From positions 1 through 64,000 of the forward strand of contig JANJVG010000024.1 of assembly GCA_024710165.1 (NCBI GenBank): DNA of 64,000 nucleotides. The letters run 5' to 3'. Origin of the DNA: Burkholderiaceae bacterium (GTDB lineage: Bacteria > Pseudomonadota > Gammaproteobacteria > Burkholderiales > Burkholderiaceae_C). The position numbers and the translations under genes are program-made. Under the pieces are notes generated by a model that was not told where the DNA came from, made no database searches, and saw only the letters and a program-made list of their open reading frames with translations. Shown here piece after piece: positions 31,140 to 35,692 of the stretch (the stretch's first letter is position 1; every line of letters starts with the position of its first letter).

Positions 31140-31757
31140 TCAGCCCAGGTGTCCGGTCATCAGGAACAGCGGATAGCTGCGGCCATTCTGGTGCTGCATG
31201 TGCACGATGTCGGTGAAGGCGATGCCGCGCAGGCCGGCGCTCTCGGCCATGGTCTGCAGGGCCTCGGGCGCAAAGCCGAAGTGCTTCACACCCTTGGCCT
31301 CGTTGTCGCCGTGAAAGCTGCCGTCTTCCTGGTACAGGTCCACCAGGGCAATGCGCCCGCCCGGGTGCAGTACCGCCGCAAAGGCGCGCATCAGGGCGGC
31401 CACGTCGGCCACATGGTGCAGCGCCATGCAGCTGACGATGGCGTGGTAGCGGCCCGGCAGGCCGTCAAAAATGTCGCCGTGGTGCGTGGTGATGTTGGCA
31501 ACGCCTTTGTCGTTCAGCACCTGCAGCATGGCGGCGGACATGTCCAGCGCGGTGACGTGTGCCACCTTCGGTGCAATCTGCGTGGCCAGCAGGCCGGTGC
31601 CGGCGCCAAAGTCCAGTACCTGATCGGTGGGCGACAGGGGCAGTTGTGCCAACAGCAGTGGCGGCACGGCGGCCAGTTGCTGCGACATGGGGCGCTGGTC
31701 CCAGTTGCGGGCGGCTGCGTCGAAATGGGAGGTTTCGGGGGTGGGAGAGGTGGTCAC
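31140..31757 (-). CDS. Class I SAM-dependent methyltransferase (UbiE/COQ5-like)
   Basis: 205-aa Rossmann methyltransferase. SAM motif I is VLDFGAGTGLLATQIAP near residues 47-63, then acidic motif II VTALDMSAAMLQVL, and post-II VSCMALHHVADVAALMRAF with LHPGGRIALVDLY. The substrate is unknown; the family includes quinone and small-molecule methylases. The start is uncertain: I use GTG 31757, which gives VTTSPTPETSHFDAAARNWD, a common N-terminus; upstream ATG is missing in this frame near enough. Divergent from the RNase P RNA gene. Confidence 0.85.
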   Translation of the reverse strand: MTTSPTPETSHFDAAARNWDQRPMSQQLAAVPPLLLAQLPLSPTDQVLDFGAGTGLLATQIAPKVAHVTALDMSAAMLQVLNDKGVANITTHHGDIFDGLPGRYHAIVSCMALHHVADVAALMRAFAAVLHPGGRIALVDLYQEDGSFHGDNEAKGVKHFGFAPEALQTMAESAGLRGIAFTDIVHMQHQNGRSYPLFLMTGHLG

Positions 31758-31826
31758 GGCGAGAGCGGATTTCAGGGCAATGGATGCAAGTATGGGCGAT
31801 GCCCGGCTGCCCCCGCCCCACTCTGG

Positions 31827-31832
31827 GATAAT
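31827..31832 (+). promoter_or_regulatory. rnpB: -10 motif of rnpB
   Basis: GATAAT ending 7 bases before the first base of the RNase P RNA P1 stem (31840). Because an RNA 5' end is known structurally here, this sets the expected distance from this type of hexamer to the transcription start. Confidence 0.55.
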
Positions 31833-31839
31833 CCGGCCC

Positions 31840-32236
31840 GTGAAGCGCGCCAGACCGCCGCTGGTGCAATCTGGGAAACCAGGCACTGGAGGAACGTCCG
31901 GACTGCACAGGACAGCGTAGCAGCTAACGGCTGCCCACCGTGAGGTGAGGATCAGAGCAACAGAGACGAGTCGGAGCAGGCTGCAAGCCACGGAGGGTGT
32001 TTCACCCGAAGCGGGCGGCGCCCGCTTCGGGTGAAACGGGCAATCTCTACGCGCAGCAATACCAAGTAGGCCAGCCACGGGAGCAGGGCGACCTCTCTCG
32101 ACCTTGTGGTTCCGCAGGGAGAGCTGGCGGGTAGGTAGCACCGAGCCGGGTGGGCGACCCCCGGCCCAGAGTAATGGCGGTCACGCCCGGGCAACCGGGT
32201 GCACAGAATCCGGCTTATCGGCGCGCTTCACACTTT
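31840..32236 (+). ncRNA. rnpB: RNase P RNA (M1 RNA), bacterial type A
   Basis: Catalytic RNA that matures tRNA 5' ends. The P1 helix pairs GTGAAGCGCGCC at 31840-31851 with GGCGCGCTTCAC at 32220-32231. Conserved cores are visible: GGAGGAACGTCCGGACT near 31885 (P2/CR-I), AGAGCAACAGAGA near 31952 (CR-II/III), and the 3' AGAATCCGGCTTATCGG near 32205 (CR-V). The hairpin near 32000-32040, built from TTTCACCCGAAGCGGGC and GCCCGCTTCGGGTGAAA, is a long variable stem. A run of four T follows P1. Length about 395 nt, normal for the class. Exact 3' end may vary by a few bases. Confidence 0.95.
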
Positions 32237-32243
32237 TACCCAT

Positions 32244-32304
32244 CAAAACAGCGTCCAGCCTTTGCTGGATAAGCGCAAGCTGCTATTGTTTTGGGTAATC
32301 AAAA
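32244..32304 (-). repeat. Repeat A copy 5
   Basis: Reverse copy between rnpB and the pseudouridine-synthase-like gene: on the reverse strand CAATAGCAGCTTGCGCTTATC, then CAGCAAAGGCTGGACGC. Its outer end reaches the stop codon of the reverse-strand gene at 32299, so the element may have supplied or closely followed that stop. Confidence 0.75.
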
Positions 32305-33084
32305 CTTCTCCCACCCCTGCAGATACCGCCACTGCCCCTCAGGCACCTTGGCCAGCGGCACGCGGCCGATGCGGATGCGCTTGAGGGCCACGACCTTCAG
32401 ACCCACGGCTTCGCACATGGCCGGGATCTGCCCGGGGCGTATGCCCTTGAGCGCAAAGCGCAGGCGGGTTTCGTTCTGCCAGCTCACCTTGATGGGGGGC
32501 AGCGGGCGGCCGTTGAACGAGAGGCCGTGGCAGAGCTTTTTCAAGCCGTTGTCGGCAATCTGGCCCGCCACCTCGACGATGCATTCCTGCTCCAGCGTCT
32601 CGATGTCCTCCTGCAGCTTGCGCGCGATGCGCTTGTCCTGCGTGTAGACCACCAGCCCGCTGGCGGGGGTGGGCAGCGGTGTGAAGCATTCCAGTTGTTT
32701 GAAGTGGCGCAGCAGCACGCGGATGTCTGCGGCATCCTCGGGCATGTGGGACGGCGCGCCCAGCAGCGTGAGGGCTGACGGCGCACCCTGGCTGCGGCTG
32801 CCGTGCGCGGCGGCGCCAGCCTCCAGGCCCAGCCCGGCCTCGTAGCCTGGGGGCTTGTGCAGCAGCAGGGTGACGGGGGTGAGTTCGAGCAGGCTGGCGT
32901 CTTTCTCCACCATCACCGCCTGGTCGGGGCGCACGCGCGCGCCGGGGAGCTCCTCCACCTGGCCTTCCACACGTACAAAGCCGCCTTCGATGAATTGCTC
33001 GGCCATGCTGCGCGAGCAGGCCAGTTGTTCGGCTACGCGTTTGGCCAGGCGGATGTGGCCGGGGTCGGAATTCTTGTCAGTCAT
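32299..33084 (-). CDS. RsuA/RluF-like S4-domain protein, probable pseudoenzyme
   Basis: 261-aa protein with the architecture of an rRNA pseudouridine synthase: an N-terminal S4 RNA-binding domain (about residues 9-60, with RVAEQLACSRSMAEQFIEGG), then the synthase fold with LLLHKPPGYE at 74-82. At the catalytic motif, where family members have GRLDxxTxGL, this protein reads CFTPLPTPASGLVVYTQD, so the essential Asp corresponds to Pro138. KLQEDIETLEQECIVEV and the C-terminal LKRIRIGRVPL are retained. It may bind RNA without modifying it. The ATG overlaps the stop of the NUDIX-MBL gene by eight bases, so the two are coupled. Confidence 0.85.
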   Translation of the reverse strand: MTDKNSDPGHIRLAKRVAEQLACSRSMAEQFIEGGFVRVEGQVEELPGARVRPDQAVMVEKDASLLELTPVTLLLHKPPGYEAGLGLEAGAAAHGSRSQGAPSALTLLGAPSHMPEDAADIRVLLRHFKQLECFTPLPTPASGLVVYTQDKRIARKLQEDIETLEQECIVEVAGQIADNGLKKLCHGLSFNGRPLPPIKVSWQNETRLRFALKGIRPGQIPAMCEAVGLKVVALKRIRIGRVPLAKVPEGQWRYLQGWEKF

Positions 33085-34741
33085 TGCCAGGCTCCATGGC
33101 GCGGATGCGCTCCACATGCGCGATCAGTGAGCGCTGCGCCAGCGGCCACATGCGCGGCGGCACGTCGGCATAGGCCAGCTCCACCCACTGCTCCACCGTG
33201 CCTTCGGGCAGCTGCTGCATGGCGGCGAGGACCTTGGCCTCGCGCGCCAGGCGGTGGCCCTTGAGTTGGGCGATGGCGGCGCGCGCCTCGCCCAGCACAT
33301 GGCCGTGCGCGGGCAGGATGAACTCCACGCCGTGTTCGGCGCACAGCTGGTCGAGCCGGTCGAGCGCGTCGAGGTAGTCGGCCATGTTGCCGTCGGGCGG
33401 GTTGATGATGGTGGTGCTGCCGTTGAGGATGTGGTCGCCGGAAAACAGCAGGCCGTCTTCCCGCAGCAGCAGGCACACATGGTTGGCCGCGTGGCCCGGC
33501 GTGTGCACCACCTGCAGCGTATGGGTGATTTCGCCGTCAAGCCCTTTACCGGTGAGCGTTAGCAGCTCATCATTCGATAGCGAACGGTCGGGTGTGAACT
33601 GGCTGTCGGCACGCGCCGTGGGGGCCGAGGGCCGGCCCAGGATGGGCGGCGCGGCGCGCCCCGCGCGCAGGCACATCTGCTGCAACGGCGCGGCGCCGGG
33701 AGAATGGTCGGGGTGTGAATGCGTGCACACGATCATGCGGATGTCGCCGCCCGCCGCGCGCCACAGGCGTGCCAGGTGCTCGGCGTCCGCCGGGCCGGGG
33801 TCGATGGCGATGTAGCCCGTGGCCGGGTCGCCCACCAGGTAGCTGTTGGTGCCGGGGCCGGTCATCACGCCGGGGTTGGGGGCGGTCAGGCGCTGCACGT
33901 TCTTCAAGAGCGGCACGGCGCGCTCGCTCTGCCAGTCCAGCGGGTGGGCGATCTGCCCGTCGGGGCAGACCAGGGCCAGCTCGCCGAAGGGCATTTCGTC
34001 TTCCATGTAGCGCGCGTCCTTGCCGGCCAGCAGACCCGCGCGCGGGCAGCTCGTCCACAGCGGGGCTTCGCTCACGGCGCAGGCGGCCAGCACATCGTCC
34101 ACGCGCGCGAAGGGCACCAGCCGCTGCAGCGTGCGGATGGTCGGGAAGATCATGAAGAAGCCGCCGGCCGCGTGGCGCTCCAGAGCGTCCTGCGGGCGCA
34201 CCCATTGGGGCTCGAATTGCTCGGCCTCGTCGGCCACGGGCGTCTGGCCTTCGGGCATGCGTGCCACGAGGAAGGGCACGTCAAAGCGCTTGGGCAGGTC
34301 GCGGTCGGTGATCCAGCGCGCCAGGATGAACACCCCGTCGGCGGCCAGCCGCAGGCCGCGCGCCTGGCATTGTGCGGCGAACGGGGCCTGGCGGTCGAGC
34401 GCGGCGATGTCGTCGGCATCGGCCCAGCGCCCGTCGGGATGGCGCGCCAGCAGCACGCCCAGCTCCTCGAAGCTCTCGCGGATGGCGGCAATGGCCTCGG
34501 TGAGCTGCTCGTCGCCCTGCGTGGCGCGGCGTGCGGCGGCGTGGTGCGACTGGGCATCGAGCGCGTCGATGCCGCCGCCGGGGAACACATAGGCGCCGGG
34601 CGCGAAGCTGGCTTTGGTCGAGCGCCGCGTCATCAGCACCTCCAGCCCCTGCGCGCCATCGCGCAGCAACAGCACGGTGGCGGCGGGGAGGGCGGGGACG
34701 GGCGGGCGGGGCGGGTGCAGGAGCTGGTTGGGGCGTGTCAT
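33077..34741 (-). CDS. NUDIX hydrolase fused to metallo-beta-lactamase fold
   Basis: 554-aa two-domain protein. Residues about 15-240 are a NUDT19-like NUDIX domain: [15 protein letters not shown] opens the box and [17 protein letters not shown] holds the metal-binding REXXEE core. Residues about 290-520 are an MBL/glyoxalase II-type domain of the LACTB2 group with [15 protein letters not shown] (metal site), [11 protein letters not shown] and [10 protein letters not shown] helical tail (ending [14 protein letters not shown]) is as in LACTB2. Both active sites look complete. I start at ATG 34741, which has GATAAT 6 bases upstream and no ribosome-binding site; a far longer upstream frame overlaps dapF and is not supported. 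The substrate is unknown; CoA or RNA derivatives are family precedents. Confidence 0.88.
33551..33583 (-). repeat. Possible repeat A remnant inside the NUDIX-MBL gene (copy 6)
   Basis: On the gene strand GCTATCGAATGATGAGCTGC then TAACGCTCACC resembles the GCTATT-hairpin plus AGCGCTT part of repeat A and is AT-rich for its surroundings. It translates as [12 protein letters not shown]. Degenerate; could be chance. Confidence 0.4.
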
Positions 34742-34747
34742 GCACCC

Positions 34748-34753
34748 ATTATC
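34748..34753 (-). promoter_or_regulatory. -10-like motif of the NUDIX-MBL gene
   Basis: GATAAT on the reverse strand, 6 bases before the ATG at 34741. Part of the recurring start-proximal hexamer pattern. Confidence 0.4.
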
Positions 34754-34800
34754 GGCACAGCCTGCACCCCCACCCTGCGGCGGGGACGACGGCCAGCCCC

Positions 34801-34806
34801 GATAAT
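34801..34806 (+). promoter_or_regulatory. -10-like motif of dapF
   Basis: GATAAT, 7 bases before the ATG at 34814, with no Shine-Dalgarno sequence. It mirrors the opposite-strand motif of the divergent NUDIX-MBL gene 50 bases away. Confidence 0.45.
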
Positions 34807-34813
34807 CCAGGCC

Positions 34814-35692
34814 ATGCAAATTCGCTTTACCAAGATGCAGGGTGCGGGCAACGACTTTGTCGTGCTGGACGAAACCCAGGAACGCCTGGGGCTCACGCCT
34901 GCGCATTACCGCCTGCTGGCCGACCGCCACTTTGGCGTGGGGGCCGACCAGATCCTCACCGTGCGGCCCTCGCCGGGTGAGGGCATCGACTTCGAATACC
35001 TCATCCACAACGCCGACGGCGGCGAGGTGGAGCAGTGCGGCAACGGCGCGCGCTGCTTTGCTCGCTACGTGCGCGACAAGGGCCTCACGCCCAAAGACCG
35101 CATCCGCGTGCAGACGCTCTCGGGCGTGATCGCGCCCGAACTCACGCCCGACGGCCGTGTCACCGTGGACATGGGCCGCCCGCAGTTCGACCCGGCGCGC
35201 GTGCCCTTCGACGCCGCAGGCCTCACGCCCGTGCCCCAGGGTTTGGGGCAAAAATGGCCTCTGGCGCTTAATGGGCAAGCGCAGGTAGCTACTGTTTTGG
35301 TAGTGGTTGTCTCCATGGGCAACCCGCACGCCGTGCAATTGGTGGACGACGTGGACAGCGCTCCCGTGGCGCAGACCGGCCCGCTCATCGAATGCCACGC
35401 CCGTTTTCCCCAGCGCGTGAACGCGGGCTACCTGCAGGTGGTGGACCGCAGCCATGTGCGCCTGCGCGTGTTCGAGCGCGGCGCGGGCGAAACCCTGGCC
35501 TGCGGCACCGGCGCCTGCGCGGCCGTGGCGGCGGGCATTCACCTGGGCCTGCTGGATGCGCGCGTGGACGTGCAGACGCGCGGCGGCCTGCTCACCATCG
35601 CCTGGAGCGGCCAGGAGGCCGACTCCGTGTTCCTGACCGGCCCGGCCACCACTGTGTTCGAAGGCCAGATCGACCTCCCCGATACCCCATGA
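34814..35692 (+). CDS. dapF: Diaminopimelate epimerase DapF
   Basis: Cofactor-independent epimerase that converts LL- to meso-diaminopimelate for peptidoglycan and lysine. The two catalytic cysteines are Cys75 in [11 protein letters not shown] and Cys230 in [22 protein letters not shown] at the N-terminus and [13 protein letters not shown] in the middle are family signatures. 292 aa is slightly longer than usual; the extra text [20 protein letters not shown] (about 146-164) lies between the two halves just before SMGNPH and is encoded by a copy of repeat A. The ORF remains intact and the cysteines are far from the insert, so the enzyme is probably active. Operon dapF-DUF484-xerC, as in many proteobacteria. 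Confidence 0.96.
35249..35305 (-). repeat. Repeat A copy 7, in frame inside dapF
   Basis: Reverse copy: TGGCCTCTGGCGCTTAATG, then GGCAAGCGCAGGTAGC and TACTGTTTTGGTAGTGG. The AT-rich block with the GGCCTCTnGCGCTT core is unmistakable within high-GC coding sequence. Confidence 0.88.

Follow-up and report, generated by a model that had tools for sequence, protein, structure and literature searches.

The 64,000-nt stretch of DNA analysed here (the window), from a Burkholderiaceae bacterium, carries a gene whose product resembles RNA pseudouridine synthases and yet appears to be without their catalytic aspartate, which raises the question of whether it encodes an enzyme, a decaying remnant or a protein with another function. 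The open reading frame runs on the minus strand from 33084 to 32299 (feature 32299..33084) and is translated into 261 amino acids followed by a stop. An S4 RNA-binding domain is matched by Pfam S4 at 2.5e-07 over residues 12-55 (32920..33051, minus strand); PseudoU_synth_2 scores under its cut-off, and the TIGR00093, RluF, RsuA and RluB models match the protein at 1e-12 to 1e-17, all under the curated cut-off. The closest solved structures by sequence are those of RsuA, RluF and RluB, and the same three proteins head the Foldseek matches (RsuA, 1ksk, 1.7e-19; RluF, 3dh3; RluB, 4lgt) of an AlphaFold2 model computed with 70 family sequences as input (pLDDT 92.2, pTM 0.87). By descent and predicted fold, the protein is a member of the RsuA/RluB/RluE/RluF family, with an S4 domain and an RsuA-type fold, as the initial annotation had it.

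That annotation also proposed that the catalytic Asp is replaced by Pro138, and alignment bears this out: Pro138 shares a column with E. coli RluB Asp110, RluF Asp107 and RsuA Asp102. It lies in the sequence F134-T-P-L-P138-T-P-A-S-G-L144, whose last ten residues, T135 to L144 (32653..32682, minus strand), are the remnant of the GRLDxxTxGL motif. In the alignment with the three E. coli enzymes, the base-flipping Arg (RluB Arg108) corresponds to Pro136 and the active-site Tyr (RluB Tyr140) to Cys168, the latter in E165-Q-E-C168, the remnant of the K-E-Y motif (32581..32592, minus strand). The motif-III Arg (RluB Arg194) has likewise become Gly218, within P217-G-Q-I-P-A-M-C224 (32413..32436, minus strand), which is what is left of motif III (xRQIRRMC) and where the next two Arg are gone as well. 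In RluB, Arg108 is the base flipper and Asp110 the catalyst, Tyr140 and Arg194 being also discussed; the Arg108Ala and Tyr140Phe variants have 0.6% and 3% of the activity left, respectively, and activity is abolished when the Asp is mutated in TruA, TruB, RluA or RsuA (PMC3919597).

The loss is fixed in the pseudoenzyme family, none of its 145 members having an intact catalytic set. Arg is found in no member in the RluB Arg108 column, where 132 of the 145 have Pro, nor in the Arg194 column, where Gly occupies 135 and Lys one. The Asp110 column holds P, E, D, Q, V, A or G (Glu in 43/145, Asp in 11/145), and the Tyr140 column keeps its Tyr in 50/145. In the intact homologues compared, the Arg, Asp and Tyr are present in 25/25 and the motif-III Arg in 24/25. 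The 11 members with Asp in the catalytic column are also without the base-flipping and motif-III Arg, so that Asp by itself is a poor marker of activity. From the missing catalytic set and the published mutants, we infer that catalysis is absent from the family.

In RluB, the RNA loop is anchored by an Arg of the S4 domain, Arg17 (PMC3919597); it aligns with Arg25 (codon at 33010-33012, minus strand), which is invariant in 145/145 members. The conserved C-terminal segment KRIRIGR, residues 235-241 (32362..32382, minus strand), has Arg236 and Arg238 in all 145. Basic columns of the cleft wall are lost at 136, 166, 217, 218, 221 and 222, and basic residues are newly conserved at Lys156, Lys199, Arg207, Lys213 and Arg241; the S4 domain carries a slight net negative charge. 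Given the invariant anchor Arg, the protein would be expected to bind RNA. The loss of basic residues of the RNA groove, in motif III and elsewhere, means that the original substrate mode cannot be intact.

The gene is maintained by selection. All 65 Comamonadaceae orthologues have the same type of motif and no stop codons, and the motif class is common to the 80/80 orthologues first collected, from Comamonadaceae and Oxalobacteraceae, again without stops, which rules out a sequencing error at the motif. Relocation of the catalytic residue was also rejected, as the invariant columns of 70 members include no invariant new Asp. The median omega of about 0.24 indicates purifying selection and excludes a recent pseudogene. 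In the genus of the window, 25 of the 26 other genomes carry the gene, most of them together with an intact RluF. The overall distribution is patchy, and the gene is lost or broken in some genomes; one member (G990:C1:4695284-4696014) is split across two overlapping frames, possibly a recent frameshift or loss.

Phylogeny points to RluF as the source. In a tree of 95 sequences, all 73 members form a single clade nested among RluF-like enzymes. With a wider set, the full members form a single clade (bootstrap 100/SH-aLRT 99), and so do the members together with partly eroded paralogues (100/99); the early branch order is less certain (support 80 to 86), and the clade sits on a long stem, which makes long-branch effects on its exact attachment possible. 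The eroded paralogues (L273, L275, L277, L317, L325 and L318-L324) are second copies of RluF, carried alongside an intact one in families f5, f28 and f51, and they form basal branches of the pseudoenzyme clade. Their active sites differ: L317 and L325 retain the Arg and Asp with EQEL in place of the Tyr motif, L277 has KLD with EQEY, L275 WLD with EKEY, L318 and L320 PLD and EQEF with no motif-III Arg, and L322 and L323 ALE. Decay looks stepwise because these early-branching paralogues are only partly eroded; the data support a single RluF duplication followed by stepwise decay, in which loss of the Asp probably did not come first. The loss is larger than first noted, extending to the whole active site and to an ancient clade reaching beyond the Comamonadaceae.

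The family occurs in many families of Burkholderiales and extends to several further orders of the same class, and a loss confined to the genus of the window was thereby rejected; the few matches examined outside the class (L212-L214) are intact enzymes. Counts of the family based on scores are approximate, because the scores of divergent members overlap those of intact RluF. One member, WP_003082237.1 of Pseudomonas aeruginosa (L331:4998-5708, NZ_CP131792.1), has the RefSeq name 'rRNA pseudouridine synthase'; its motifs TLALDSEASGL, LEQEY and LPGQLRFMC keep the Asp and Tyr, and both Arg are gone. Its gene sits on a record of 847 kb that was submitted as a plasmid and also carries the flagellar genes fliI and fliJ as well as roeA. 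Another record, NZ_CP119142.1 (L333) of Neisseria gonorrhoeae, is filed as a plasmid yet looks chromosome-sized (2.17 Mb), and encodes an intact RluF-like protein.

In the window, the gene is flanked upstream by an ORF for a NUDIX, metallo-beta-lactamase and BLACT_WH fusion (33077..35542, minus strand), which overlaps its start codon by 8 nt on the same strand, the real start of the fusion lying inside this ORF. This fusion resembles LACTB2-type proteins. Just downstream and convergent with the pseudoenzyme gene is rnpB, encoding a class A RNase P RNA (31842..32233, plus strand; Rfam RF00010, 181.9 bits), located between the pseudoenzyme gene and a methyltransferase gene. The long ORF of the latter (32141..31140) crosses rnpB on the opposite strand, and its true start must for this reason lie further downstream. 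The fusion and rnpB adjoin the pseudoenzyme gene in Comamonadaceae only, other neighbours being found elsewhere, and no conserved operon was found. Of the 38 genomes having a RIO-kinase gene, 6 have it within about 1 kb of the pseudoenzyme gene (G206, G221, G236, G281, G311 and G426, from four families and not all independent), with about 0.05 expected by chance according to our estimate. Families f210 and f122 include genomes in which RimO or TrmO, gene names recognised by eye, stand beside the pseudoenzyme gene. These neighbours hint weakly at the translation machinery. PADLOC returned no defence-system match.

Taken on sequence evidence, the protein is probably a conserved RNA-binding pseudoenzyme derived from RluF; the suggestion that it may have turned into an RNA-binding protein, made when the locus was first read, fits both the S4 anchor Arg and the purifying selection. 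More tentatively, at a little short of even confidence, we propose that it represents a previously undescribed and widespread bacterial family of S4-domain pseudoenzymes. The family would have arisen as a duplicated RluF was taken apart step by step, with intermediates that still exist, and would now be a dedicated RNA chaperone or ribosome-assembly factor whose RNA surface has been re-purposed. A search of mostly open-access literature turned up no account of a bacterial pseudoenzyme of the RsuA/RluF type. RluF, a 23S rRNA synthase, would have been duplicated and the active site of one copy dismantled: at the base-flipping and motif-III Arg, the Asp, the active-site Tyr and its neighbouring Lys, residues were replaced or freed to vary. 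Purifying selection continued to hold the S4 domain, the fold and the basic C-terminal segment, and new basic positions became conserved. The protein would then bind a structured RNA stem-loop via its S4 domain and altered surface, with neither flipping nor isomerisation of a uridine, and may be an RNA chaperone or an assembly factor, with rRNA or a ribosome precursor as its likeliest target. That the bound RNA is ribosomal is a possibility we hold with rather more doubt, this target being a guess from RluF ancestry and gene neighbours.

The protein could instead bind or chaperone tRNA rather than rRNA, a reading we regard as unlikely and one that draws on the dual specificity of E. coli RluF for 23S position 2604 and tRNA-Tyr position 35 (PMC7822408), on TruB, which chaperones tRNA independently of catalysis (PMC11301382), and on the TrmO genes mentioned above; the sequence, however, holds no direct tRNA signal, and the RIO-kinase neighbours point, weakly, to ribosomes.

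A role as a dominant competitor or regulator of the paralogue RluF, which would occupy the U2604 stem-loop or act as an RluF partner, is improbable. Such a role would suit a descendant of RluF that coexists with intact RluF within the same genus and across several families. As for the genome of the window, a search for other intact enzymes of the family found RluB (C141), RsuA (C178) and RluE (C100), along with RluA/C/D-type proteins. Intact RluF was not found in this assembly (G000; 94% complete), probably owing to an assembly gap, as RluF is present in 25 of the 26 other genomes belonging to the genus; a complete, single-contig genome of the same family (G867) is likewise without RluF. Among the carrier genomes tested, however, 19 of 25 yielded no intact RluF, and because the pseudoenzyme is so often present without it, an obligate RluF partner or regulator was rejected.

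It is very unlikely that pseudouridylation or another base reaction persists via different residues, for instance Glu165 or Glu167, or the Asp or Glu of some members. Those acidic residues, the Tyr kept by about a third of the family and the residual activity of RluB Tyr140Phe (PMC3919597) could be taken in its favour, but the catalytic column has no invariant acid, the base-flipping and motif-III Arg are missing even from Asp-bearing members, and Glu165 and Glu167 are common to most active enzymes and so are not new catalysts. Finally, a functionless, decaying gene is hardly credible: patchy distribution and the split frame in G990 would be expected of one, but not the low omega, 80 orthologues free of stops, retention in nearly all genomes of the genus and many invariant residues.

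The RluF-derived pseudoenzyme can be set beside several known systems. With RluF itself, which makes 23S rRNA Psi2604 and tRNA-Tyr Psi35 and among whose relatives it is nested, it has in common the S4 domain, the fold, the S4 anchor Arg and the C-terminal segment KRxRIG...GxWR; it differs in the replacement of the base-flipping Arg, Asp, Tyr and motif-III Arg and in its new conserved basic positions. Human RPUSD3 is likewise a pseudouridine-synthase paralogue without the catalytic Asp, replaced there by Gly; no activity was detected in cells and its role is unknown (PMC12716993). RPUSD3 is, however, of the RluA type, whereas the protein described here is bacterial, RluF-derived and equipped with an S4 domain. 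TruB provides a precedent for a pseudouridine synthase acting on RNA folding without catalysis (PMC11301382), although its own active site is intact. RluB, seen bound to a ribosome-assembly particle that is named B-b3 in the entry title (PDB 9cl9), belongs to the same fold family and offers a possible model for the role, but is an active enzyme.

At least one member of the family bears the RefSeq name 'rRNA pseudouridine synthase' though it is without residues that the reaction needs, and predictions of Psi sites from gene content in Pseudomonas and Burkholderiales may err as a result. The family is a bacterial counterpart of human RPUSD3, in organisms in which knockouts are easy to make. In addition, its paralogues, with their different combinations of Arg, Asp and Tyr loss, make the order of events in the conversion of an RNA-modifying enzyme into an RNA-binding protein addressable.
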